From Planctomycetales bacterium (lineage in GTDB: Bacteria > Planctomycetota > Planctomycetia > Planctomycetales > Planctomycetaceae): DNA of 64,000 nt. Positions 52,049 through 64,000 of this stretch are shown here, piece after piece. The stretch covers positions 1-64,000 of the forward strand of contig JAPLOA010000095.1 of NCBI GenBank assembly GCA_026400835.1, written 5' to 3'. Position 1 is the first letter of the stretch. The number at the start of each line of letters is the position of its first letter. The notes under the pieces are model-generated. The model did no database searches. It was not told where the DNA came from and worked only from the letters and a program-made list of their open reading frames with translations. The position numbers and the translations under genes are program-made.

Positions 52049-52930
52049 TCAGAGCCATGCGAGTCGAAGTTCACCGTTGCGATCCTCGATAACGGCGGTG
52101 CAGTTCTCGACCCAGTCGCCGGCGTTGCAATAGGTGACGCCATCGACGTCAATGTGTTGGGGTGCGTGGATGTGGCCGCAGATGACTCCGTCGACTCCGC
52201 GATGACGAGCATGACGGACGATCTGATTGCGAAAATGACCGACATGATTGCCGATAGACGTCAATCGTCGCTTCAATCTTCCGACAAAGGAACCGTTTCC
52301 ATGCAAGGCTGCGGAAGTGACTCGGCTCCAGATCGAGTTCGCTCGCAACATCCCTTCATAGAACAAACTCAGAAATCCGACAGTGAATGAGGATGCCCGT
52401 TCATAACAATCAAACTGGTCGCCGTGCAGAACCAAGAATTGTCGACCATCGGCTGTTCGGTGATGAAACTCTTCCGCAACTTCCACCATTCCGCACTGCT
52501 CAAAAAATCGCAGGACCATCGGGCCACGCAGAAAATTGTCGTGGTTGCCGATAGCCAGTCGAATACGTGTGCCACCTCTGGCCAGATCCATCAAACGGGC
52601 CACAATCTGATTACATTCCGATTGCCAGTGCCACCCACTCTGCAAACACCATCCGTCGATGAAATCGCCGACAAGATAAAGATTTTCAGGCTCATGTCGA
52701 TTGAGAAATTCCAGGAGCGACTGAACCCGAGAGTGCCTGAAGCCGAGATGAAGATCGCTCAGAAATAGCGAACGAACACGAGTGGTCTTCGGAGGGGCAG
52801 TTGATTCAGGAGGCTTCCGGCTAATCGCCCGTTCTGGTGCCCAGAATTCATTGTCTGTTAATCCCGGCAGATGCGGAGCGACAAAATCCAGAGGTTCGTC
52901 GACAAGAAGATCTTCTGTGAAACTCATCAT
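52049..52930 (-). CDS. LpxH-like metallophosphoesterase
   Basis: 293 residues from ATG 52930 (a second ATG follows directly). A longer reading to 53029 would overlap the gene upstream by 71 bases. Di-metal motifs are complete and ordered: SDLHLG (about 55-60), GDFID, GNHD, LHGDQFD and CGHIHAP. In LpxH such enzymes hydrolyse UDP-diacylglucosamine to lipid X for lipid A; other members act on other pyrophosphates. The first 50 residues are an extra tail. It is in one operon with an alpha/beta hydrolase and a PAP2 phosphatase. Confidence 0.88.
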   Translation of the reverse strand: MMSFTEDLLVDEPLDFVAPHLPGLTDNEFWAPERAISRKPPESTAPPKTTRVRSLFLSDLHLGFRHSRVQSLLEFLNRHEPENLYLVGDFIDGWCLQSGWHWQSECNQIVARLMDLARGGTRIRLAIGNHDNFLRGPMVLRFFEQCGMVEVAEEFHHRTADGRQFLVLHGDQFDCYERASSFTVGFLSLFYEGMLRANSIWSRVTSAALHGNGSFVGRLKRRLTSIGNHVGHFRNQIVRHARHRGVDGVICGHIHAPQHIDVDGVTYCNAGDWVENCTAVIEDRNGELRLAWL

Positions 52931-52958
52931 GATCTCACGTCCCTGCGAAGTGAAGAGT

Positions 52959-53882
52959 TCAACGTCGTCGGCAGATGGGAGCAATATTCTCCCGAACAAA
53001 CGCCGCGTTCGTAGATCCGAAATGACCACCGAAATTCCAGGATTTGGCCATACTCTTTTTGTACGGAATCTGATTCAGTCTCGGCCCTTGCTCCCGTGAA
53101 ATGCCGGCGGACACCGAATCATGATCCGTGGTGAGGAACCCCAGTGCTCCGGCCGATACGGTGTGGCGCCGGTCCATTGTCCCGAAGAGCATGGTTCCAA
53201 TTCCCACGGTGGGCAAATCAAGCGGAGAATAAAAATTCCAGATGCCAGCCTTGGTGCGATTCAGCAGCCGACCCACATCAAACTTCCGTGAAACAGCCGC
53301 CGACAAAAGCGTGACCGAAGTCACGGCCTGATCTTCTCGAAGTTGCTCCAGAACGAACAACGCCATGCCAGCCCCAGCAGAATGACCAATCAGGTGAACC
53401 GACTGGCCCGGGAAGTCGCGCTGGTAGTTGACGATCAACTCCGCGACGACCCGGGCCTGAGTGCGATTATGTCGCTGCATGGCCAGATGCAGCGGGTTCC
53501 ATGGACGAAAACGTCGCCAGTCAATGATCTGAATCGCGTGCGACAACTGGCCGGCAACGAGGCCACGAGCGATGCTGTCATTGACAGTACTGCAACCTTC
53601 GATGCCCGGCAGAATGATGATCAGACCATGCTCCAGACGGCTCGAACAAGAAAGGGGTCTGTGAAACTTTGCTCCGCTTCGACCGAGCGGCGCGAGGAAC
53701 AAGCCAAGCATGGACTGCAATCCAAGCTTGAAGACTGCAGCGCGATCAGGAACGGTATTCGCCTGAGCGGAAGCAGAAAACAGGAGCCCATCCTGGTAAG
53801 ACTGTTCGGCGTGCATGACCAAATTGTTCGTCTCCGGAAGAGCTGCGTTGCGAATCGATCTGTCACCAAAAGCGAGCAGCAT
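52959..53882 (-). CDS. alpha/beta hydrolase
   Basis: 307 residues. The nucleophile elbow is GHSAG with Ser168 (SVHLIGHSAGAGMALF). The oxyanion stretch LIIILPGIEGCST is at 88-99. A likely catalytic His is near TTDHDSVS (about 253). No clear signal peptide. It likely hydrolyses an ester or thioester of a lipid. It ends 28 bases before the metallophosphoesterase and starts 10 bases after the PAP2 gene, so a three-gene operon. Confidence 0.85.
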   Translation of the reverse strand: MLLAFGDRSIRNAALPETNNLVMHAEQSYQDGLLFSASAQANTVPDRAAVFKLGLQSMLGLFLAPLGRSGAKFHRPLSCSSRLEHGLIIILPGIEGCSTVNDSIARGLVAGQLSHAIQIIDWRRFRPWNPLHLAMQRHNRTQARVVAELIVNYQRDFPGQSVHLIGHSAGAGMALFVLEQLREDQAVTSVTLLSAAVSRKFDVGRLLNRTKAGIWNFYSPLDLPTVGIGTMLFGTMDRRHTVSAGALGFLTTDHDSVSAGISREQGPRLNQIPYKKSMAKSWNFGGHFGSTNAAFVRENIAPICRRR

Positions 53883-53892
53883 CGAATGACTT

Positions 53893-54435
53893 CTATCCCA
53901 CGATCAGCAGGCTCAGTTGACTAATAAGCATGCCGAATAAGGCTCCCAGCACTACGTCCGTTGGATAATGGAGTCCCAGCACGACGCGGGAGATTGCGAC
54001 AAGAATCGTAAAGCCCAGCAGCAGTGGGAGAAGAGCCGGGAACCAGGCGACTGCAATCACAGAAAACGAGACTGCATGCATCGTATGGCCCGACGGAAAG
54101 CTGTACTCATCCAGAGCTACAGTTCCCTGCATAATCGCCTCGTAGACAGCACCGGGGCGTGGTCGCTGAGTCACACCTTTCACTGACTTGTAAACCAGAA
54201 GTGTGATAAGTGCGGTCAGCCCCATGTGCAGGGCGGCTTTGATTCCATAGTGACCGTGAAGCAACGGCAGGATCACCATCAACGCATACCAGAATTTCCC
54301 GTTGCCAAGATTACTAATGACTCGAAAGAACGGTGAGACTGTTCGCCATCTCAACGTTCTGTTCATCAGAAACGTAATCTGACGATCCCAATAGACCATT
54401 TGATTAATGGCCGCTTGCCGTCGACTGGTCTTCAT
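53893..54435 (-). CDS. PAP2-family membrane phosphatase
   Basis: 180 residues, about five helices. All three PAP2 motifs are clear: KGVTQRPRP (C1), YSFPSGHTMHA (C2) and SRVVLGLHYPTDVVLG (C3). It resembles undecaprenyl-pyrophosphate or phosphatidyl-glycerophosphate phosphatases (PgpB/BcrC type). A GGGAGGG ribosome site lies before the ATG. First gene of the operon with the hydrolase and phosphoesterase. Active site toward the periplasm (family knowledge). Confidence 0.92.
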   Translation of the reverse strand: MKTSRRQAAINQMVYWDRQITFLMNRTLRWRTVSPFFRVISNLGNGKFWYALMVILPLLHGHYGIKAALHMGLTALITLLVYKSVKGVTQRPRPGAVYEAIMQGTVALDEYSFPSGHTMHAVSFSVIAVAWFPALLPLLLGFTILVAISRVVLGLHYPTDVVLGALFGMLISQLSLLIVG

Positions 54436-54681
54436 AGAGCCCTCCCTGGAATGACGACAGATTTAACACCAGATCCTCTAACGGCCACATGCACCGATCG
54501 CTCTGTCATGAGAGAATTGCCTCGCTGGCTGCTTTTCGCGATTCCACCAACCACAAAGTCTGAGATTCAACGCCAGCAATACCGAATCCCGCGACAACCT
54601 CCATTAATTCTCGGACATGAACGTTAAACCTATAGCGCGATTTGAATTCATTTCTGATGAATTCCACGTTCAGATATCTTC

Positions 54682-55971
54682 TTAAACACCAGAACTTACG
54701 TGCTGATGCATGCGTGAAGTTTCCATGTTGACCGCAGGTTTCGTTTTCCCCGGCGCCAGCAACTGAAACAGTCGCACCAGTGCTTTTGTCAGAAGTGTGG
54801 CCATCATTCCAGGCCGACGATTCCCAATCCGGCTCGGTGACAGAAGCTGAAACTCACTGATCACCTGCTGATATTGTGAACGAACTTCATCGCTCGAATG
54901 TCTCCAGGTTCTCGTCTGAACCGACGCCAGAGCTGCCGCGGACATCTGCTCCTGACGGTCGAGCGACTGGATGATCTCTCCAACATACTGGCTGGCTTCA
55001 GTCGCATTACGAGGAGTAAACAGGTACCCGTTCGAGCCATGATGAACGAGGCTGGTCACTCCGCCCGCATTCGCTGCGATAACCGGCAATCCACAAGCCA
55101 TCGCCTCGAGAATGACATTCCCCATCGTCTCCGTTTCAGAGGCGTAGACAAAAGCATCGGCCGAAGCATAAGCCGCTGCCAGTTCTTCACCGCGAAGGTA
55201 TCCAACGAAATGAGCCTTATAGCGCGAGAATCGCCGAACAAGTTCATCACGCTGCGGACCTCCGCCAACAATGGCGAGTGTTGCCTCGGGAACTCGTTCG
55301 AGGACCTCGGTCAGAAAGCTGACATTTTTTTCAGAAGCGAGGCGTGAGACCGTCAGTAGCAGAGGTGATTCCGGATGATTGCCACTTAGCCGGCTTCGCA
55401 TTGCTGCAGATTTTCGCTCAGGGTTGTACAAACGGCAGTCAACGGCCGGTGGCCACAGTGCAACTCGTTCGAATCCTCGTTTGCGAAGGTCGTCGGCCAT
55501 GAAATCAGAGACGGTCAGGTTTCGATCGGCCGTGTTGTGGTAACTTTTCATCAGCCACCACAATAGCCGAGAAAGTATCCCCAATCCGCGATACTGCTTC
55601 ACAAACTCGCCATAGAGGGTATGGAACGAGAACAACACCGGAAGCTGAAGATCGCTGCGACAGAGCAGGTCATAACACTGAAACCCAAATGCGAACGGAT
55701 TCAGAAAATGAATCACATCAGGACGAAACGCCTTCAGCTCCTGAATGAGTCGCTGGTCAGGGCGACCGATCGCGTACTCGGGATAACTGGCGCAAGGAAA
55801 ACTGGGGAACTCGATCAAAGGAACCGGGGAATTACGGTACTCCGCGACCTTCGGACAGACGACGATCACTTCGTCCCCGTTGGCCAGCAATTGCTGAATA
55901 AGATTGACCGTGCGACCCACCACGCCGTCGATCTTGGGGAGAAATACCTCAGCCACAATCGCAATCCGCAT
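54682..55971 (-). CDS. GT4 glycosyltransferase (lipid-glycosylating type)
   Basis: 429 residues from ATG 55971, where MRIAIVAEVFLPKIDGVVGR begins and GGGAG precedes; a longer reading to 56082 is less likely. GT-B fold with VVCPKVAEYRNSPVPLIEFP, then VSRLASEKNVSFLTEVLE, and a full EX7E donor motif (ETMGNVILE) with AMACGLPVIAANAGG. It resembles SQD2 and mannosyltransferases that act on diacylglycerol or phosphatidylinositol. It is not fused to other domains. It is separated from the PAP2 gene by about 250 bases without a gene, so it may have its own promoter. Confidence 0.88.
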   Translation of the reverse strand: MRIAIVAEVFLPKIDGVVGRTVNLIQQLLANGDEVIVVCPKVAEYRNSPVPLIEFPSFPCASYPEYAIGRPDQRLIQELKAFRPDVIHFLNPFAFGFQCYDLLCRSDLQLPVLFSFHTLYGEFVKQYRGLGILSRLLWWLMKSYHNTADRNLTVSDFMADDLRKRGFERVALWPPAVDCRLYNPERKSAAMRSRLSGNHPESPLLLTVSRLASEKNVSFLTEVLERVPEATLAIVGGGPQRDELVRRFSRYKAHFVGYLRGEELAAAYASADAFVYASETETMGNVILEAMACGLPVIAANAGGVTSLVHHGSNGYLFTPRNATEASQYVGEIIQSLDRQEQMSAAALASVQTRTWRHSSDEVRSQYQQVISEFQLLSPSRIGNRRPGMMATLLTKALVRLFQLLAPGKTKPAVNMETSRMHQHVSSGV

Positions 55972-56056
55972 CGCGGAACTCCCGGAGAAAACAGTCAATC
56001 TATTCGGTGAGCGGTCAGACATTGAGTCCGCCGAATGCTTTATTGAATCGCGGTTC

Positions 56057-56235
56057 TTCACCACAGAGGCCACAGAGTGCACGGAGGAAACGCAGGGAGA
56101 ACGACAATCTGAATCGCATTTGCTGAACTGCGAAGGAAGACAGAATGCGGCTTTCTCAGCAGACTCTTTCCTGCCCGTCCGTCACGATTTCTTTGCGATT
56201 CCCACCCGCGGATTCTCTGTGACCTCTTTGGTCAA
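56057..56235. repeat. MITE-like element with CACAGAGG inverted ends, copy 2
   Basis: The left end reads TTCACCACAGAGGCCACAGA; the right end (56213-56235) is TTCTCTGTGACCTCTTTGGT plus CAA, near its reverse complement. It spans 179 bases, diverged internally from copy 1 at 116-260, and lies between two minus-strand genes. No ORF. Confidence 0.6.
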
Positions 56236-56334: not shown

Positions 56335-57153
56335 CTACGCAGGTCGACGCGCTACGGCGAGAACTATGCTGTGGTGATCCACAACCGGAAAGACCAGTCG
56401 ATTCAGAATCGCCTGTTGCCAGCGCTTCGCTTTATGCAGCCCAATCTCCTCAATGAACGGAGTCAGCCAGCCGCCGTGATATCCGTATTCGATGAAGGAA
56501 GCGAAATCAGGGAACTTCAGCTCTGGCTCGAAAGTTTCCGACATCAAAATCTCAAAACCATTCTTCTTCAAGACTTCAATGATATCCCGTTCGCTGTTCG
56601 GACAAATCATGCCCTGAAGGTCAGGGGCACCATGACCAAAGAGCAACTTCAACAGCGGATGGCCTGCCCGACGTTGCAGTTCGCCGTAACCCGCTGTGGT
56701 GCCACCCACAAATGACCAAACGCCACCGGCTTCAAGCTTCTCGAAGATTCGCGGAGCAATATGATCAATCGGAACAAAGCCAGTCACAAAATGCGTGGCG
56801 ACAAGATCAAACTTCTCGTCGATGAAATGATGATCCAGATTCGCTCCGTCATCAATCGCACAGACCAGATCCGGCAGCTTCGTTTTGGCGATGCTGGCCA
56901 TCTTCTCTGAGATATCGATTCCCCATGGTTCGATCACTCGTTGCGAACGAGATCGCAACTTCTCCAGAAACATCCCGGTTCCCATTCCTACGTCGAGAAC
57001 TCGCATGGCGGGAAGTATCGCAGACAGGATTCCTTCTGCATCCAGATGATCCAGAGCACGTTCCAGCGAGTTACTGGTGGTGTTTTGAGGATCCTGGTCG
57101 TATTGACTTGCAATGACATCGTCATACTGACGTTGAATGACCGCTGATTCCAT
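56335..57153 (-). CDS. SAM-dependent class I methyltransferase
   Basis: 272 residues. SAM motif I is LDVGMGTGMFLEKL (about 53-66), motif II region WGIDISEKM, and FDLVATHFVTGFVP for the post-motif strand. No fused domain; the substrate is unknown. Single gene in this orientation, 180 bases from the divergent GMC oxidoreductase. The C-terminal part (ASFIEYGYHGGWLTPFIEEI) is a lid or dimer region. Confidence 0.88.
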   Translation of the reverse strand: MESAVIQRQYDDVIASQYDQDPQNTTSNSLERALDHLDAEGILSAILPAMRVLDVGMGTGMFLEKLRSRSQRVIEPWGIDISEKMASIAKTKLPDLVCAIDDGANLDHHFIDEKFDLVATHFVTGFVPIDHIAPRIFEKLEAGGVWSFVGGTTAGYGELQRRAGHPLLKLLFGHGAPDLQGMICPNSERDIIEVLKKNGFEILMSETFEPELKFPDFASFIEYGYHGGWLTPFIEEIGLHKAKRWQQAILNRLVFPVVDHHSIVLAVARRPA

Positions 57154-57335: not shown

Positions 57336-58898
57336 ATGGATGCGGATTTCGACATCATCGTTGTTGGCAGCGGCGCGGGAGGCGGGACACTGGCTTCAGT
57401 ATGCGCGTCGGCTGGAAAGAAAGTTCTGCTGGTTGAACGTGGTGGATTGACAGGTGGAAACGAAGGCGCTGCAGCACTCCGACCGAGTTCTCTGCACGAT
57501 GAATTTGCGACGCTGATCCAGAAGCAGCCCTACGATGATCGCTCGATCGTTTTGAACTCCAGCCCTGCTCGACTTTATATGGGGGGGATCATCGGTGGTG
57601 GTACATCAGTCTACGGAGGTGCGCTCCTGCGTCCTCATCCCTCTGATTTTTCTCCCGGCCGATATTATGCCCAGCGTATTCCTAAATACATTCATGAGTG
57701 GCCAGTGTCCTATGAGTCGTTCGAGCCCCATCTGAAGGCGGCCGAAAGTCTTTACTGCGTCGCTGATGTTCGAGATCCACGAGGTCCCGAAGCATCGCCA
57801 GACACGTCAACTATCGAGAGCCTGAAAAGAGATAAATCCGGAGCCTCCTCCGTCGGCCGGAGTGGCATTCCTCTTGCCCGGATCAATGAGAAACTAATCC
57901 GCTCGGCCCGGAATTCGGGCTTGAATCCTTATCGATTACCGCTGGCAATTGAAACCTCGAAATGCCTGCGCTGTGATAACTGTGCGGGATTCGTCTGTCC
58001 CACCGGAGCGCGACGTTCGTCGGGCCAGTTGGTACGGGAAGGCATTGATCGCGGCGATTCTTTAACTTTGAAAACTCAGTGCGAAGCGGACCTGCTGGAG
58101 CGAGGTGTCGGCGGTCGGCTTAGCGGTCTCTGGCTGAAAGATAGAGTGACGGGATCGCGAGTTCGGTACACCGCCAAACGTTATGTGCTCTCGGCCGGCG
58201 CGATTGGATCAGCGGCATTGCTGCTGAAGTCGGGGTTTGACCATCCGATGATTGGTCGGAACTATATGATGCACTATTCACCGATCTCGATCGGGGTCTT
58301 TATGCGTCCCACCGGCGCGACGCAGACGTTTATCAAACAGATTGGTTCCTCAGACTATTATTTTGGCACTCGGGATCTGCCGGAAAAAATGGGGATTATT
58401 CAATCACTGCCCGCACCGGGGCCGTGGATGATGGCGAAAACCGGAATGAGGTGGGTTCCGCACTGGATGCTGAAATTTCTGCGTTCACGCATGTTGCCAT
58501 TGGTCGGCATCGTTGAAGATCTGCCGAATCCGGACAATCGCGTTTCGCTCGATCGGTCCGGGACCATCCAGCTCCATCATCAGTTTTCGGATTACGATCG
58601 TACACGTGGTGCGGAGTTATCTCGCTGCATGTCGGAACTCCTGAAGAGCACCGGAGCTGTCCATTGTGTCTCCGGTTTAAGTCCGTCTCAGGAACACGTC
58701 GCTCATCAGTGTGGCACGATTCGATTTGGGGTGTCGCGGGATTATGCGGCCGCAGATGCCGAATGTCGTTTGTTTGATCAGCCGGATGTTTTTGTGGTTG
58801 ACGGAAGTTTCATGCCAACTTCATTGGGAGTTGGCCCGTCCTTAACAATCATCGCCAATGCTCTGCGTGTTGCCGAGATCGTGGCGTCAGAAGTATGA
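57336..58898 (+). CDS. GMC-family flavoprotein oxidoreductase
   Basis: 520 residues. FAD-binding IIVVGSGAGGGTLASVCASA (8-27) and the C-terminal VDGSFMPTSLGVGPSLTIIA, typical of GMC oxidases and dehydrogenases (cholesterol oxidase, choline dehydrogenase). A Cys-rich phrase CLRCDNCAGFVCPTGARR (about 209-226) is like that of the cholesterol-oxidase-like branch. A likely catalytic His is in HQCGTIRFG near 457. It oxidises an alcohol to a carbonyl. First gene of a coupled operon: its stop overlaps the start of psd. Confidence 0.92.
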   Translation: MDADFDIIVVGSGAGGGTLASVCASAGKKVLLVERGGLTGGNEGAAALRPSSLHDEFATLIQKQPYDDRSIVLNSSPARLYMGGIIGGGTSVYGGALLRPHPSDFSPGRYYAQRIPKYIHEWPVSYESFEPHLKAAESLYCVADVRDPRGPEASPDTSTIESLKRDKSGASSVGRSGIPLARINEKLIRSARNSGLNPYRLPLAIETSKCLRCDNCAGFVCPTGARRSSGQLVREGIDRGDSLTLKTQCEADLLERGVGGRLSGLWLKDRVTGSRVRYTAKRYVLSAGAIGSAALLLKSGFDHPMIGRNYMMHYSPISIGVFMRPTGATQTFIKQIGSSDYYFGTRDLPEKMGIIQSLPAPGPWMMAKTGMRWVPHWMLKFLRSRMLPLVGIVEDLPNPDNRVSLDRSGTIQLHHQFSDYDRTRGAELSRCMSELLKSTGAVHCVSGLSPSQEHVAHQCGTIRFGVSRDYAAADAECRLFDQPDVFVVDGSFMPTSLGVGPSLTIIANALRVAEIVASEV

Positions 58899-59782
58899 AG
58901 CACTTCATGAAGATACGACTCGAACAATTTCGACAGGCTCGTCGAATCCATGGTGGAACACTGAACATGCTCGGGGCCGCAATCGGAGTGCGATTGTCTC
59001 GAACACCCATCCCCACAGCGGCCTTGCGCCGAAAGGTGTTTTCGATGATCTACGGCGGAAAATATGGAGCACTGGACGAGACCGAACTGGAAAAGCCTCT
59101 CGAGCAGTTTCGATCGCTGAACGAATTATTCACGCGAGGCGTCAAGCCATCGCTTCGGCCGATTCCAGAACAGACAAATCAATTTCTTTCTCCAGTCGAC
59201 GGAACCGTTCAGGACATCGGTCGGATTGAAAAAGACACTGTGATGACCATCAAGGGGATTCGTTACACCCTGGATTCATTGTGCCCGGAAACCGATACTT
59301 CTCCATTCAATGATGGGCACTTCGCGATTCTGTTTCTGTCTCCTCGCGACTGTCACCGCGTGTTTACGCCGGCCGATGGCGTGCTGAAACAACTGGTCCA
59401 TGTTCCCGGTCATCGACTGCTTGTCCATCCGCCTTATCAGACGCCCGAGTTTCCCGTCTTCGCGCTGAATGAGCGGCTCATCATGCAGCTCGACACGTCT
59501 TTCGGCAAGTGCCTCCTGATTATGGTGGCTGGCTGGGGAGTTGGTCACATCACTCATCCGTTTCGAACCGGACACCGATTCAGCCCACGCCGAGTCACAG
59601 TTACGAAACTGGAGACACCTCGCCCCATGGATCGCGCGGAGTGGATTGCGACCTTTGAACTGGGATCAACAGTGATCCTGATGACGGAGAAAAACTGGAC
59701 AACTTCGGCACTTGTCGAACGAGATCAGTCAATCCACTTCGGCGAACCGCTGTTCGATACAATCACAGGGAAGGCGGACTGA
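58895..59782 (+). CDS. psd: phosphatidylserine decarboxylase proenzyme
   Basis: 295 residues. The autocleavage motif LGST is at 256-259 (ATFELGSTVILM), so S258 becomes the pyruvoyl group of the alpha chain. D102 (SPVDGTV) and H154 (SPRDCHRVF) are the charge-relay partners. It turns phosphatidylserine into phosphatidylethanolamine at the inner membrane. Length fits the type I enzymes. Placement between a GMC oxidoreductase and an FAD oxidase-like protein, with overlaps on both sides, is unusual and suggests that it serves the same pathway, possibly on a modified lipid. Confidence 0.96.
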   Translation: MKHFMKIRLEQFRQARRIHGGTLNMLGAAIGVRLSRTPIPTAALRRKVFSMIYGGKYGALDETELEKPLEQFRSLNELFTRGVKPSLRPIPEQTNQFLSPVDGTVQDIGRIEKDTVMTIKGIRYTLDSLCPETDTSPFNDGHFAILFLSPRDCHRVFTPADGVLKQLVHVPGHRLLVHPPYQTPEFPVFALNERLIMQLDTSFGKCLLIMVAGWGVGHITHPFRTGHRFSPRRVTVTKLETPRPMDRAEWIATFELGSTVILMTEKNWTTSALVERDQSIHFGEPLFDTITGKAD

Positions 59783-62013
59783 TGAAACTGTCGGGAGAGG
59801 AGACGGATTCTGCGGCCCTTAGCGTGTTGGAATCCCATACGAGCGGGCTGGACGCGCATTTCAACGTGGCGGCTGATGGAAATTCGTCTGCCTGCGGCTT
59901 ACGACTGATTGTCTCCTGTGGTGATACCGGGCTCGCGAAGGACTATCTCCGCTTTCTGAATCAGAACTCCGCACAGAGCGAGGACGGGGCTTCTTATCAG
60001 TTGCTTTCACCGGAAATCCTCCTTCAGAAGATTGCCCGCGGTGAGGTCCGTCCAGTCGAGATTGTTTTTTTTCTCAACCGGAGGGTTTCCGGCCAGGTGA
60101 TAAATGTCTTTGCAGGGTTATCGCAACTCGCGTCGATCATGCCGTTCACTTGCCTCATCGTGCTTCCTTCATTGTTCAGCCATCTGTGTCCGGGCCACAA
60201 CGACGGCATGCAGGCAATGCTTGATCAGTTGAGCGAATCGTTTCGAAAGTCCGAAGACCGAACGACAGCGGGACTAAACACGTCGAACCCCGATTTTGAT
60301 TCTTCAAATCCCGTGGATGGCGCCACCTCAATTCGAGATCACGGAACGATTCAAAGCCCTCGAAGATCCCGACTGATCGTTCTCTCTACAGGGTATGTGC
60401 TAAGTCCGTCATCGTCGATTACAAACCGACTGAAGCGGTTGCGAAGATTTCATGTCCTGACAGGCCCTCAGTTAACGTCTACGTTCGTCGCCGGAGAAAA
60501 GCTGTTCTCCGTGATCAATGCTGAGCTTGAACAGACTGCGCAGAAGTGTCTACCTCGCGCCGCTGTTGCGAATTCAGCCGTAGCGACAATTGAGAACGCT
60601 TCGTTAGATCGCAGTCAGAGAATTTCTGGCGAAGACTCCTCCCTCGCAGGTGCGAAGCCCCGATTAGTAACTTCTGATGTCGGACACATTTCTGAACCGG
60701 GCAGCACTCGCCATTTGACGATCCTTGGAGTTCGTCGAAGCTGGCAGGCTGTGCTCATTGAGCAGATGCCGGAGGGATCGGCCGAAAGATCCTCCGGAAA
60801 GGCGGAATCGCTGGTGGCGTCTCTCTTCAAGCGCCTTGGAATCTCATGGCTCGTCTGCACAATTATCCGCCTGTTTGGCGTGCTTGTGCCTTCGTTCCGG
60901 CAGATTCATTTCGATACGTTGAAACCTCGCTCCGTTCGAGAAATCATTAGTCTGTACAACCGACACAACTGCCAGGATGTGCAGTTGGCCGGATACAACA
61001 ATGGCGTGAACCACTTTGGCTGGAAGTTTCCCGAAAAGACAGTTGTGCTGACGACGGGACTACCCGGGAAAACTCGGTTGTCCGATGCTTCGATGCTCGA
61101 TCTGGAGGCCCGCCTGCGCAGCGCGGTACAGGGCGAGAAATTGGACTCTACTTCGCAGAACAACGCCACAGTTTCCGATACGCATTTTACAGTCGATGCG
61201 GGTCTGACTCTGAAGCACTGCATTCAGGAACTCAACAAGGCAGAACGGGAGTTCTACGTTGTCCCGAATTACTCCTGGATCAGTATGGGGACTTTGTATT
61301 TTGTTCCGGTTCACGGATCGGGTAGCCACGTTTCCACACTGGGCGACACAATTGAGGACGTCCTGCTCTACGACGGCGATACGGAAGAATTTATTTTGAC
61401 TCGACGCGGCGAAACACTGTTTCGAGATGCGATGTACGACACCAGTCGACATCGCCTGTTGTTGCGGCTGACGTTGCGAGTGAAACCGAAGTCCGTGTAT
61501 TCCGTCAAGCATGAGACGCTGGAAAATCCGTCGGCTGAGGACGTGCTGAAAGTCTTCGAGGATCCCGAAGCCTCAAATGTGGAGATTCGGAAGAATCGAG
61601 CCGCAAGCACTTCGATCGATATACGACGCTATTACGTCGATTCACCATCGGCCGCTGCAGGGGCTTTGGAAATGCCGCGAGACAGCATCGGTCGTGTCTG
61701 GGATCGACTCGAAGAAACGCCGATCGTGTCTACTCTGTTTCACTGGTTTGTACGAAGGTTCGCATTCCATGTGGAGTTGTTCCTGAGGCCAGAAGAATTT
61801 GTCGTCTTCTGGAACCATCATAAGACGCTGCCGATCTCAAAAATTCAGCTCCGGCAGATGCTGAAGGATGGGATGACAAACTCCGCGTGTGCTTTTGAGA
61901 ACTGCCTTTCCGCTGACTTGTTTATGACGAGGAGCAATCGAGATGTCTTCCTTGGATTCATCAGTACGCATCTTCCGCGCGTCCGCTGCAACCCCGGCAA
62001 ACAGAGCCTTTAG
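59782..62013 (+). CDS. two-part protein: degenerate Rossmann-like N-half and FAD-binding oxidase-like C-half
   Basis: 743 residues. Residues 35-255 are a loose alpha/beta part (LRLIVSCGDTGLAKDYLRFL, VEIVFFLNRRVSG, RLIVLSTGYVLSP) that recalls an NAD-type Rossmann domain without a clean glycine motif. Residues 380-620 match a VAO/PCMH-type FAD domain: FTVDAGLTLKHCIQELN, PNYSWISMGTLYFVPVHGSG, STLGDTIEDVLLYDGDTEEF, LFRDAMYD and LLLRLTLRVKP. The rest is C-terminal cap. Such FAD enzymes oxidise alcohols or form ether lipids (alkyl-DHAP synthase is one); the substrate here is unknown. Start overlaps psd; the end overlaps the aminotransferase gene. Confidence 0.75.
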   Translation: MKLSGEETDSAALSVLESHTSGLDAHFNVAADGNSSACGLRLIVSCGDTGLAKDYLRFLNQNSAQSEDGASYQLLSPEILLQKIARGEVRPVEIVFFLNRRVSGQVINVFAGLSQLASIMPFTCLIVLPSLFSHLCPGHNDGMQAMLDQLSESFRKSEDRTTAGLNTSNPDFDSSNPVDGATSIRDHGTIQSPRRSRLIVLSTGYVLSPSSSITNRLKRLRRFHVLTGPQLTSTFVAGEKLFSVINAELEQTAQKCLPRAAVANSAVATIENASLDRSQRISGEDSSLAGAKPRLVTSDVGHISEPGSTRHLTILGVRRSWQAVLIEQMPEGSAERSSGKAESLVASLFKRLGISWLVCTIIRLFGVLVPSFRQIHFDTLKPRSVREIISLYNRHNCQDVQLAGYNNGVNHFGWKFPEKTVVLTTGLPGKTRLSDASMLDLEARLRSAVQGEKLDSTSQNNATVSDTHFTVDAGLTLKHCIQELNKAEREFYVVPNYSWISMGTLYFVPVHGSGSHVSTLGDTIEDVLLYDGDTEEFILTRRGETLFRDAMYDTSRHRLLLRLTLRVKPKSVYSVKHETLENPSAEDVLKVFEDPEASNVEIRKNRAASTSIDIRRYYVDSPSAAAGALEMPRDSIGRVWDRLEETPIVSTLFHWFVRRFAFHVELFLRPEEFVVFWNHHKTLPISKIQLRQMLKDGMTNSACAFENCLSADLFMTRSNRDVFLGFISTHLPRVRCNPGKQSL

Positions 62014-64000
62014 AAGTATGAACTCAGACTGTCTGTCAGCGCTTCAGACATGTGACCAGATTATTCGTCTGAAAATCCCCAACCTGCTGCGCCTTTATCT
62101 GAATCCGTTCGTCGCTCAAACATGCGTCGCGCTTGCGGAAATAGTGTCAGAAGTCTGGCCTGCGACGAGAAGTGAAGGGCGTCGATCGTCGTTTCTGGCG
62201 AACTCTGGCGAAGAAGCATTGAGCGGGGCTCTCAAGCTGGCTCGTTATGCGCAGAATGTTGGCTCACAAAAGGATGCCGCAGCGACTGAGCGCAGGACTT
62301 TAGTCACGCGAGCCTTCCTGGTGGATGATGGGAATCGCTTCCGTCACTTTGCTTCGACTGAGATTGAATCAGATGAATCTGACGAGCAAGTGACCATCGA
62401 GTTCATTCCCGAGATGCACTCGATATCGACGGCCCAGTTCATTGCACACAATGAGCAAGCCGGTGCCTCCGGCGGAATCCTTGTGCTATCACCGGATGCT
62501 CTGAGAGAGGCTCATCGATCAGACGATCTTCAACAGGCCGTGATGCGATTCTGCAGCGGTAATCGCGGTCTGGTAATCGCCTGCATGGATCATGACCTGT
62601 TCAATGATCGAGTAATGTTTCAGGGCAATGGACTGGTCCCGGACATTGTGGTTTTTGATGAGTCATTCACAAGGCGTCAGGTTCCTTTCGGAGCCTTTTC
62701 GGCTCGCCCCGAACTTGCGGCATTATGGACGGTGAAGGGAATGACGAATTTCCATTCCACGACTTTCCAGCCGAACACGATCTCCACGATGCACTTTCTG
62801 AAGTGCCTTCAGGAATATTCTGAACCTTTTTATCGTCAACTTCAGCCAATGCTGAAACCGCTGCTCGTTGACCATGATTTGTTGCACCACACTTTTCGAG
62901 ATCTCTTCAGTTCATCACTCGCAAAGTTGATCTCACTCGCGGGATACGACCAGGATGACGTGACCGCGTCCGGGCACTACATTCGCGTTGGAAACAAGCG
63001 AATCTTTGATGGAGTTGGCGGAGTCGCCTGCAGCCTGAGAGGACACAATCCACCGGACTGGGCCAAAGAGATTCGCGAGTTGGATCCCGTCGAAAGCATC
63101 CGAAGCGAAGTCCAGTCGCGACTGGATGCACTGACTGGACTTCCGCATCATGTGCCCGCCGTCAGTGGTGCGGCTTCCGTTGAACACGCGATTAAGCTGG
63201 CATTGACAGCTCATCCGTCCGGATCACGGATCGTGGCGTTTCAGGGGGGATTTGGTGGCAAGACTCTGTTAGCATTGTCCGGCACCGCAAAAGGTTTCTA
63301 TCGACAGAACATCGATCCTCTTTATGCCAACGTTGTCTATCTCGATCCGTTCGCGGACGACGCGGCCAGCAGACTTCAACAGCTCGCCGAAGAAGCTCCG
63401 ATTGCCCTGATGCAACTTGAATTGATTCAGGGTGTCGGCGGTGTCCGGGAGATCCCCGAGTCACTACTTCGCAGCATCGAGGAGGTTCGGCAACGGACGG
63501 GAGCATTCCTGTTTGTCGACGAGATTCAGACGGGGATGTTTCGAACTGGCCCTTTCGTCAGATCCTCGGGGAAGCCAATTCAGCCCGACCTGTTGACGAT
63601 TGGCAAAGGGATCAGTGACATGATGTTCCCGTTTGCTTTGACGCTCTATTCGGATCGCATCGACTATCTCCTGAAGGCTCGGCAATCAACGCTCGCTTCA
63701 GATCTGCATAACCAATACTCGTATGAACTCGGATACCGAGCGTTGCTGAATACTCTGCGTCGAGCTGAGCATGAAGACGTGAGCCTTCAGGTTGCCAGGG
63801 CAGGACAGCGGTTTCAGGAAGAGTTGGCTCGTCAGTTAAAGGGCGTCTCACTGGTACGCGAAGTTCGTTGCTACGGACTCCTGATCGGCATTGAACTGAA
63901 CTGCCGAAAGAGTCTGATGCAACGAGCCGGCCTGAATGCGGCACAGTTGTACCTGCTGCAGATGATGAATCACTCCCGGTGCCCGGTGCTGATGGGGTTC
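61943..64000 (+). CDS. duplicated class III aminotransferase-like protein (first copy inactive), partial
   Basis: At least 686 residues; the gene runs off the window end. Start 61943 is chosen because AGGAG (61930-61934) lies 8 bases before it; it overlaps the upstream gene by 71 bases. An ATG at 62018, 5 bases after that gene's stop, is the alternative. There are two PLP-fold units. The second has the usual VSGAASVEHAIKLAL, FVDEIQTGMFRTG and K555 (LTIGKGIS), so it should be active. The first has NSGEEALSGALKLAR and a matching PDIVVFDESFTRR, but E240 stands where the PLP-binding Lys should be, and the Asp-Glu before it reads CM. Substrate unknown; amino transfer onto a lipid-derived carbonyl is likely. 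Confidence 0.82.
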   Translation, partial: MSSLDSSVRIFRASAATPANRAFRSMNSDCLSALQTCDQIIRLKIPNLLRLYLNPFVAQTCVALAEIVSEVWPATRSEGRRSSFLANSGEEALSGALKLARYAQNVGSQKDAAATERRTLVTRAFLVDDGNRFRHFASTEIESDESDEQVTIEFIPEMHSISTAQFIAHNEQAGASGGILVLSPDALREAHRSDDLQQAVMRFCSGNRGLVIACMDHDLFNDRVMFQGNGLVPDIVVFDESFTRRQVPFGAFSARPELAALWTVKGMTNFHSTTFQPNTISTMHFLKCLQEYSEPFYRQLQPMLKPLLVDHDLLHHTFRDLFSSSLAKLISLAGYDQDDVTASGHYIRVGNKRIFDGVGGVACSLRGHNPPDWAKEIRELDPVESIRSEVQSRLDALTGLPHHVPAVSGAASVEHAIKLALTAHPSGSRIVAFQGGFGGKTLLALSGTAKGFYRQNIDPLYANVVYLDPFADDAASRLQQLAEEAPIALMQLELIQGVGGVREIPESLLRSIEEVRQRTGAFLFVDEIQTGMFRTGPFVRSSGKPIQPDLLTIGKGISDMMFPFALTLYSDRIDYLLKARQSTLASDLHNQYSYELGYRALLNTLRRAEHEDVSLQVARAGQRFQEELARQLKGVSLVREVRCYGLLIGIELNCRKSLMQRAGLNAAQLYLLQMMNHSRCPVLMGF

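Follow-up and report, generated by a model that had tools for sequence, protein, structure and literature searches.

Glucose and fructose dehydrogenases of the FAD type are GMC enzymes that carry an iron-sulphur cluster, and in aminoglycoside pathways class III aminotransferases partner another GMC enzyme, 6'''-hydroxyparomomycin C oxidase. DprE1 is the oxidase of lipid-linked ribose, and its partner DprE2 is an SDR. Relatives of these proteins stand next to a homolog of phosphatidylserine decarboxylase (PSD) at the end of the 64,000-nucleotide stretch of planctomycete DNA analysed here (the window). We tentatively propose, as a reading that could well prove right, that the cassette they form carries out a membrane-associated conversion in which a hydroxylated lipid head group of polyol or sugar type becomes amine-bearing. 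In the open-licence literature we found no paper combining GMC oxidoreductase, PSD and aminotransferase in planctomycetes, and papers on Planctomycetes and PSD included none on this operon, judged by title or start of abstract.

An initial annotation of the window had described four overlapping or nearly overlapping genes. All four reading frames lie on the forward strand at the positions it gave (Table 1), and they are indeed adjacent or overlapping: the GMC and PSD frames share 4 bases (58895-58898) and the PSD and orf3 frames a single one (59782). The third claimed overlap, 71 bases between orf3 and the aminotransferase (61943-62013), is doubtful. Several relatives begin some 25 codons further in when aligned, and residues 1-24 have a pLDDT below 50 in the model, so the true start of the aminotransferase may be near 62018. 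The set also proved larger than four, consisting of five core genes and a methyltransferase.

Table 1. Features of the cassette and its neighbourhood (window positions unless stated).
Feature	Position	Strand	Size and matches
GMC oxidoreductase	57336..58898	+	520 aa; PF00732/PF05199 over cut-off
Phosphatidylserine decarboxylase homolog, pyruvoyl type, LGST cleavage site	58895..59782	+	295 aa; PF02666, TIGR00163
orf3, degenerate, possibly SDR-like half and FAD-binding half	59782..62013	+	743 aa; FAD_binding_4 in family, DprE1/alditol-oxidase fold
Tandem class III aminotransferase	61943..64000, on to contig position 64159 (L002:1943-4159)	+	738 aa; Aminotran_3
Fifth gene, small membrane protein	contig position 64141-64668, outside the window		175 aa
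SAM methyltransferase, divergent neighbour	56335..57153	-	272 aa; Methyltransf_25 1.6e-9
GT4 glycosyltransferase, accessory	54682..56082	-	Glycos_transf_1 2.2e-32
PAP2 phosphatase, accessory	53893..54435	-	PF01569 3e-23
Alpha/beta hydrolase, accessory	52959..53882	-	PF00561 1e-5, at its cut-off
LpxH-like metallophosphoesterase, accessory	52049..53029	-	PF00149 2.4e-11

A scan of database genomes gave 30 loci, 27 of which have all five genes in identical order and strand. The remaining three (L036, L045 and L052) end at contig edges and are consistent as far as their sequence runs, and two genomes beyond the scanned loci (L032 and L033) show the same arrangement. The distribution is patchy (12/99 relatives), and the cassette is kept together across distantly related planctomycetes, among them the completely sequenced named strain Singulisphaera acidiphila DSM 18658 (L049). 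Linkage therefore exceeds chance, which supports the initial view of the operon as a functional unit and not a chance grouping. Within the flanks (frames of at least 80 aa, up to 10 kb) we saw no recurrent transporter, regulator or NRPS/PKS gene. Two clusters of neighbours, a prepilin-like family in five loci and zinc dehydrogenases in three, were discounted because they were scattered or mixed.

The PSD homolog scores above the family thresholds (PF02666: 3.1e-44, 151.5 bits against a cut-off of 22; TIGR00163: 143.3 bits against 111.75), and its profile matches E. coli PSD in the PDB (2.6e-38). With that enzyme (PDB 7cnw/6l06) it shares the sequence family, the LGST site and the self-cleavage and carboxyl-recognition residues: D90, D142, H144 and S254, whose roles are given in PMC7952604, are retained in 28/28 cassette rows. 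In E. coli PSD, Y137 and S166 contact the phosphate of PS, and here the cassette proteins differ, with Phe replacing Y137 in 28/28 and Leu (27/28) or Pro (1/28) replacing S166. The E. coli string DYHRVH reads DCHRVF in 27/28 (one Tyr); Arg is likewise found at position 137 within the PSD family, again according to PMC7952604. Together with the linkage to four other genes, these changes set the cassette PSD apart, and on sequence grounds it is distinct from ordinary PSD. The replacements at Y137 and S166 lower the case for an ordinary PS substrate, not that for PSD homology.

Each of the 14 cassette genomes that possess another PSD gives a strong match to PS synthase (PssA), while such a match (E<1e-15) is found in 0/16 genomes whose sole PSD is that of the cassette, so that, unlike in the PssA-PSD route to PE, PssA does not accompany the cassette PSD in 16/30 genomes. 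An E. coli-type PS synthase was rejected as a hidden partner, since its model reaches the cut-off in 0/13 cassette genomes, with one weak match (G070, 5.4e-5). A candidate for a divergent PS synthase, the weak PssA-like match of S. acidiphila, was rejected as well: it is homologous to phosphatidylcholine synthase (1.3e-41, below the NCBIfam cut-off), and such a protein also occurs in a cassette-minus genome. One could still suppose that the PSD homolog makes ordinary PE from PS beside unrelated neighbours, as its conserved catalytic residues and its passing of the TIGR00163 cut-off would allow. The persistent linkage of the five genes, the PssA counts, the second PSD in 14 genomes and the altered phosphate contacts make this very improbable; as the whole story we judged it unlikely from PSD/PssA co-occurrence and PSD residues, and for the cassette PSD clade ordinary PE synthesis is probably the wrong reading. 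Because 16/30 cassette genomes have no recognised PS synthase, the amino-acid substrate of the cassette PSD is plausibly supplied by the cassette itself.

Published lipid profiles were also considered. Phosphatidylcholine is listed for S. acidiphila in Table 8 of PMC4334474, a table that has no PE column, and in PMC7828035 a figure legend on four planctomycete strains, one of them S. acidiphila, mentions PE, methylated PE, PC and PG as peaks for the four taken together. The phosphatidylcholine-synthase homolog gives S. acidiphila another likely source of phosphatidylcholine, and we dropped PC and methylated PE as support for a cassette product.

Both GMC domains exceed their cut-offs (PF00732: 1.8e-15, 57.8 against 23 bits; PF05199: 2.1e-15, 57.9 against 24.6 bits). 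In the PDB the profile is nearest to FAD glucose dehydrogenase (1.6e-44), followed by fructose dehydrogenase (1.2e-31); it aligns with these over its full length, including a C-P-x-G-A motif. Four cysteines (C210, C213, C216 and C221) are invariant in 23/23 aligned rows, but their spacing, CxxCxxCxxxxC, is unlike that of the dehydrogenases in the alignment, and the subunit genes of those complexes are absent among the recurring neighbours. The profile also matches 6'''-hydroxyparomomycin C oxidase (PDB 7dve, 1.5e-18). This suggests another scenario, in which the cassette would make a soluble or secreted aminopolyol or aminosugar, aminoglycoside-style, and the PSD homolog would decarboxylate a free amino acid. 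The matches of the PSD profile to PSD-family L-tryptophan decarboxylases (8zia, 4e-6; 8x4q, 5.4e-6) and its two changed phosphate-contact residues agree with this, and the NeoQ-type oxidase-transaminase pair of aminoglycoside pathways likewise joins a GMC oxidoreductase to a class III aminotransferase. However, the cassette adds an FAD enzyme, a PSD homolog and a membrane protein to such a pair, its aminotransferase is a tandem, and its GMC protein is nearer glucose dehydrogenase than 7dve. Moreover, the PSD is much nearer its E. coli counterpart than the tryptophan enzymes, the orf3 linker is hydrophobic, the membrane protein is conserved, and the flanks hold no recurrent gene of the kinds listed above. 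We consider a soluble product unlikely, though a serious contender.

The orf3 product consists of a degenerate, possibly SDR-like N-half (residues ~36-330), a hydrophobic linker (~350-370) and an FAD-binding C-half (~376-743). The window protein has no Pfam match up to E 10, and FAD_binding_4 is matched by 6/10 family members tested (best 1.7e-8). Its AlphaFold2 model (pLDDT 78.5, pTM 0.79) agrees with the FAD fusion proposed in the initial annotation: a fold search with model residues 133-743, that is, the C-half, and uninformative on the N-half, gave DprE1 (4fdo, VIA Z 22.4) and alditol oxidase (Z 21.9). Identity to these enzymes is ~10-15%, and they differ from orf3 in its fusion to this N-half, in which no YxxxK was found. 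For the N-half, hhalign against SDRs gave 53% (score 35.4; 30 shuffles never exceeded 12.8, and a methyltransferase scored 11.1), Pfam gave no SDR match in 10 members, the catalytic YxxxK is absent from the aligned stretch 90-200 (0/29), and a GxxGx(1,2)G string occurs in 6/29, none evident at the first strand. The 19-residue mean hydropathy of the linker is at least 1.6 in 22/29 members; the linker of L062 is not hydrophobic, and that of L044 is no more so than its FAD domain. Cytokinin oxidases tie with sugar/polyol enzymes among the structural neighbours of orf3, a counterpoint to the polyol reading.

The duplication suspected in the aminotransferase is genuine. In the window protein Aminotran_3 matches across the C-half (1.2e-41), and 7/10 N-halves tested match at E<=0.01, three being without a match; the best (6.5e-8) is the sole N-half of these 10 above the Pfam cut-off. 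The PLP lysine is present in 29/29 C-halves, where it is invariant together with the aspartate, and in 0/29 N-halves, which have Glu (24), Asp (3), Gln (1) or Ala (1) at this position; conversely, the HSTT-QPN motif is retained by all 29 N-halves and missing from the C-half. By these residues the enzyme is a dead N-half fused to a live C-half, and the two probably share a single composite active site. The model, obtained via the 92%-identical L036 protein (pLDDT 85.2, pTM 0.89), was searched with residues 295-725, i.e. the C-half, and uninformatively for the N-half; it resembles ArgD (2ord, Z 42.7) and PigE (4ppm, Z 41.8). The class III fold of the C-half and its invariant lysine and aspartate are as in these enzymes; the tandem chain, with an N-half lacking the PLP lysine and a C-half lacking HSTT-QPN, is not. 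The nearest relatives of the aminotransferase work on soluble substrates, a counterpoint to the lipid reading. A membrane-binding C-terminal helix was unconvincing, with amphipathic moments of just 0.14-0.36.

The fifth protein has no PDB sequence match up to E 10. Against the Mpo1-like family PF06127, 6/12 members match weakly (best 0.036, below the cut-off), and trimmed hhalign gives a probability of 22% (score 25.6, whereas none of 40 column shuffles exceeded 17.6); we did not accept an Mpo1 identity. A methyltransferase homolog adjoins the cassette in 25/30 loci. It is generic, with a single phospholipid-methyltransferase match (1.6e-5, far under the cut-off) and no PDB sequence match up to 1e-12. 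The GT4 glycosyltransferase, present in 19/30 loci counting the window, best matches N-acetylglucosaminyl phosphatidylglycerol synthase in NCBIfam (5.5e-40, below cut-off). It is absent near the cassette in L046, L048, L049, L056, L058 and L061, which led us to reject sugar transfer as an essential step; it is also missing in L059, L053, L045, L052 and L055, but their sequence ends close to the cassette. An LpxH-like metallophosphoesterase homolog is found in 19/30 loci, with a weaker match in eight of those. Phosphonate-degradation genes lie 16-29 kb beyond the window end in the same genome, and near L037; phosphonate metabolism was rejected as a context, the dehydrogenases at L043 and L055 belonging to other families.

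The cassette could instead be catabolic, oxidising and stripping a polyol or 2-hydroxy-acid lipid, with the Mpo1-like protein removing one carbon by alpha-oxidation, and both the weak Mpo1 similarity and the downstream phosphonate genes would suit it. We find this improbable: the hhalign probability is low, PAP2 and hydrolase genes each occur in just 8/30 loci, and a transaminase with a decarboxylase but no recurring transporter or hydrolase would be unusual in catabolism.

In the head-group conversion that we favour, two alcohol positions would be oxidised by the GMC enzyme and the FAD half of orf3, the carbonyl so formed would be aminated by the tandem aminotransferase, and the PSD-like pyruvoyl enzyme would decarboxylate an amino-acid-type intermediate, in an order that we infer; methylation of the product by the adjacent methyltransferase may follow. 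Two flavoenzymes and a transaminase fit the alcohol-carbonyl-amine chemistry put forward in the initial annotation, whose substrate and product we can only infer. It had left the choice between lipid head group and chain undecided; a polyol head group is favoured over an acyl chain because, for both flavoenzymes, most of the closest relatives of known structure are sugar/polyol enzymes. Given the hydrophobic orf3 linker and the membrane protein, a lipid-linked substrate in a presumably membrane-located system is plausible, in keeping with the aminolipid that the link to PSD had suggested, but an ordinary PS/PE product is not implied.

A specific variant is a route that leads from phosphatidylglycerol through PS to PE independently of PS synthase. 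The flavoenzymes would oxidise the glycerol head group, its end carbon to a carboxylate and its middle carbon to a ketone, the aminotransferase would form the serine head group in place, and the cassette PSD would decarboxylate the resulting phosphatidylserine to PE, which the methyltransferase may methylate. Such a route would mirror, at the level of lipids, the phosphorylated serine pathway; we hold it to be rather improbable.

Should its product be an aminolipid, the cassette would add to the membrane lipid chemistry of Planctomycetota a branch not recognised so far, and it would explain why 16/30 cassette genomes have a PSD homolog without a recognised PS synthase. Its presence in S. acidiphila DSM 18658 makes the hypothesis testable. 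The tandem aminotransferase, with apparently one composite site per chain, offers a clear case for the study of dimer fusion and division of labour.

All four reading frames of the initial annotation were borne out by a frame check of the window, which belongs to contig 37 of a 7.58 Mb genome. The four-gene operon that it had drawn from them held for its genes and fell short in its extent, as the operon continues beyond the window with a fifth gene.

Features at the cassette locus and related matches in fetched stretches
Feature	Position	Placement	Profile match
Tandem aminotransferase, 3' end	contig 64159	past window	
Membrane protein, 175 aa	contig 64141-64668	after aminotransferase, past window	
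PhoX-family gene		next after membrane protein, past window	
Methyltransferase, GT4 glycosyltransferase, PAP2 phosphatase, alpha/beta hydrolase, LpxH-like phosphoesterase		upstream of operon, divergent	
Second block adjoining methyltransferase (GT4, PAP2, hydrolase, LpxH-like)	window 52049-56082	(-) strand	
HD-domain oxygenase (phosphonate degradation)	L003:1657-2250, contig ~81.7 kb	past window	TIGR03276, 8.6e-59, below cut-off
HpnZ-type dehydrogenase (phosphonate degradation)	L003:12318-13397, contig ~92.3-93.4 kb	past window	TIGR03366, 3.8e-117
HpnZ-type dehydrogenase	L037:17351-18442		TIGR03366, 5.4e-123

Counting the window's own genome, 12 of 99 relatives carry orf3, as do 6 of 393 genomes sampled across the phylum. 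When the species-genome collection was scanned, 30 cassette loci came up; the nearest lies in a Planctomycetaceae MAG, with 93% in orf3, and the next, at 50%, in a Fuerstiella MAG. Planctomycete names stood on 27 of them, and the three exceptions were labelled as a 'bacterium' without further name (L053), 'Trichodesmium' (L060, a MAG) and 'Candidatus Kuenenia' (L039, a MAG); this last label looks wrong, because L039 agrees in length and match positions with L024, a contig from a genome assigned to the window's genus (G001). The initial annotation had proposed looking for the same four genes in order in other planctomycetes, and tblastn mapping revealed such synteny for five: GMC oxidoreductase, PSD, orf3, aminotransferase and membrane protein kept one order on one strand in 27/30 loci (in L053 and L055 the contig begins within GMC), as well as in L032 and L033. 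The remaining three loci (L036, L045, L052) are interrupted by contig ends and are consistent with the shared order over the part that is left. At L061:10301-10817 the fifth-gene match is split in two pieces, perhaps by a frameshift or an assembly error.

A methyltransferase homolog adjoins the cassette in 25/30 loci; three of the others are short (L036, L045, L052), one is cut upstream (L055) and one is a true absence (L063). Most loci have it upstream and divergent; it sits downstream of the cassette in L046-L049, L053, L056, L058, L059, L061 and L064, and L060 has it upstream on the cassette strand. Since position and orientation vary, its link to the cassette outlasts rearrangement. GT4 and phosphoesterase genes were each found in 19 of the 30 loci (window included), PAP2 and hydrolase genes each in 8; the block of all four is complete only in part of the loci. 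Beyond accessory genes, clustering of every flanking frame of at least 80 aa returned only a prepilin-like family (5 loci) and mixed zinc dehydrogenases (3 loci).

We searched for PSD and the PS synthase family TIGR00473 (PssA) in 98 relatives and 21 genomes reached via cassette loci. Strong PssA matches were those with E <1e-15, a threshold chosen post hoc, as the best per-genome E-values leave a gap between 4e-16 and 2e-8, and looser than the family's own cut-off (passed by 37/98 relatives). Among the 30 cassette genomes left after dropping three duplicates, strong PssA was found in all 14 with a second PSD and in none of the 16 in which the cassette PSD is the sole one (Fisher p 7e-9, which overstates independence because the genomes are kin). 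In the 86 cassette-minus relatives, it was found in 46/47 with PSD and in 0/39 without. PS synthase hence tracks the ordinary PSD, not the cassette PSD. The sole exception, G029, is a cassette-minus draft (93% complete) with PSD and no strong PssA match. Completeness is 87% in G008 and 86% in G022, and 20 locus-reached genomes carry no stated value; the same pattern was seen in G020, G070 and G091 (99-100% complete) and in the completely sequenced S. acidiphila. Cassette-only genomes may have a PS synthase of some other kind. The weak PssA-like matches in S. acidiphila and in G085 (cassette-minus, without PSD) are due to phosphatidylcholine-synthase homologs (L141 and L143, respectively).

Judged by its residues, the cassette PSD is an unusual decarboxylase. 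Alignment showed that D90, D142, H144 and S254 of E. coli PSD are retained in 28/28 cassette PSDs. Y137 and S166, linked to the phosphate of PS in the accessible text of PMC7952604, are replaced by Phe (28/28) and by Leu (27) or Pro (1), respectively; H147, dispensable according to the same text, is Phe in 27 and Tyr in one. R174 and H178 are newly invariant and could act as substitute phosphate binders. The window genome's other PSD (L105) retains Ser at 166 and bears Arg at 137, a variant known in the family (PMC7952604, accessible text). A cassette-PSD profile run on 30 supplied loci scored five cassette PSDs at 452-506 bits, nine other PSDs at 61-71 and four doubtful frames at 18-21, with no match in the remaining 12. 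GGSS-type PSDs with DYHRFH or DYHRYH (L102-L110) occur in the window's genome (L105) and eight other fetched genomes.

Orf3 and the aminotransferase are two fusions, each with one decayed half. In 29/29 aligned aminotransferases the C-half has K555 and D526, and the N-half has Glu (24), Asp (3), Gln (1) or Ala (1) at the K555-equivalent site; the N-half keeps HSTT-QPN in all 29, and the motif is absent from the equivalent place of the C-half in these rows. In dimeric class III enzymes, a threonine of the HSTT-type motif enters the partner's active site, so the natural inference is that each chain would form one composite site. The L036 aminotransferase, which shares 92% identity with the part in the window, gave a confident model (pTM 0.89), whose C-half resembles ArgD (2ord; Z 42.7, 2.5 Å, 379 residues) and PigE (Z 41.8). 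Homology of the N-half appears as Pfam matches in 7/10 tested, one above cut-off. The orf3 C-half model resembles DprE1 (Z 22.4, 2.9 Å, 322 residues), then alditol oxidase (Z 21.9), tied with cytokinin oxidases (~21.7). Its N-half appears SDR-like in profile comparison (hhalign 53%), with YxxxK in 0/29 rows. Linker hydropathy reaches 1.6 in 22/29 and 1.2 in 28/29; the exception is L062, and the linker of L044 is outscored by the FAD domain. In GMC, whose nearest solved proteins are sugar dehydrogenases, four cysteines are invariant across 23 aligned rows (six available rows, mostly partial or near-duplicates, being omitted). The fifth protein has invariant H20, H24, H33 and H128 (12 rows) and a weak likeness to Mpo1.

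These enzyme families are already known; neither the gene set nor its conservation nor the behaviour of PSD featured among the matches listed in the open-licence literature. Two alcohol-oxidising flavoenzymes, then the transaminase, then the PSD-type decarboxylase would lead from R-CH(OH)-CH2OH to R-CO-COOH, R-CH(NH2)-COOH and R-CH2-NH2. Among widespread lipids, PG is the simplest to bear a terminal diol of this kind; it would yield PS and then PE. We consider this bold route improbable; the changed phosphate contacts of PSD speak against it, as do the 14 genomes that already own PssA and PSD. Lipid records leave it undecided: in the accessible portions, the lipid table of PMC4334474 is without a PE column, and PE is named in a figure legend of PMC7828035 for four strains taken together. 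The membrane features and the ancestry of PSD point to a lipid as R, and sugar-bearing lipids would fit the same scheme of oxidation, transamination and decarboxylation.
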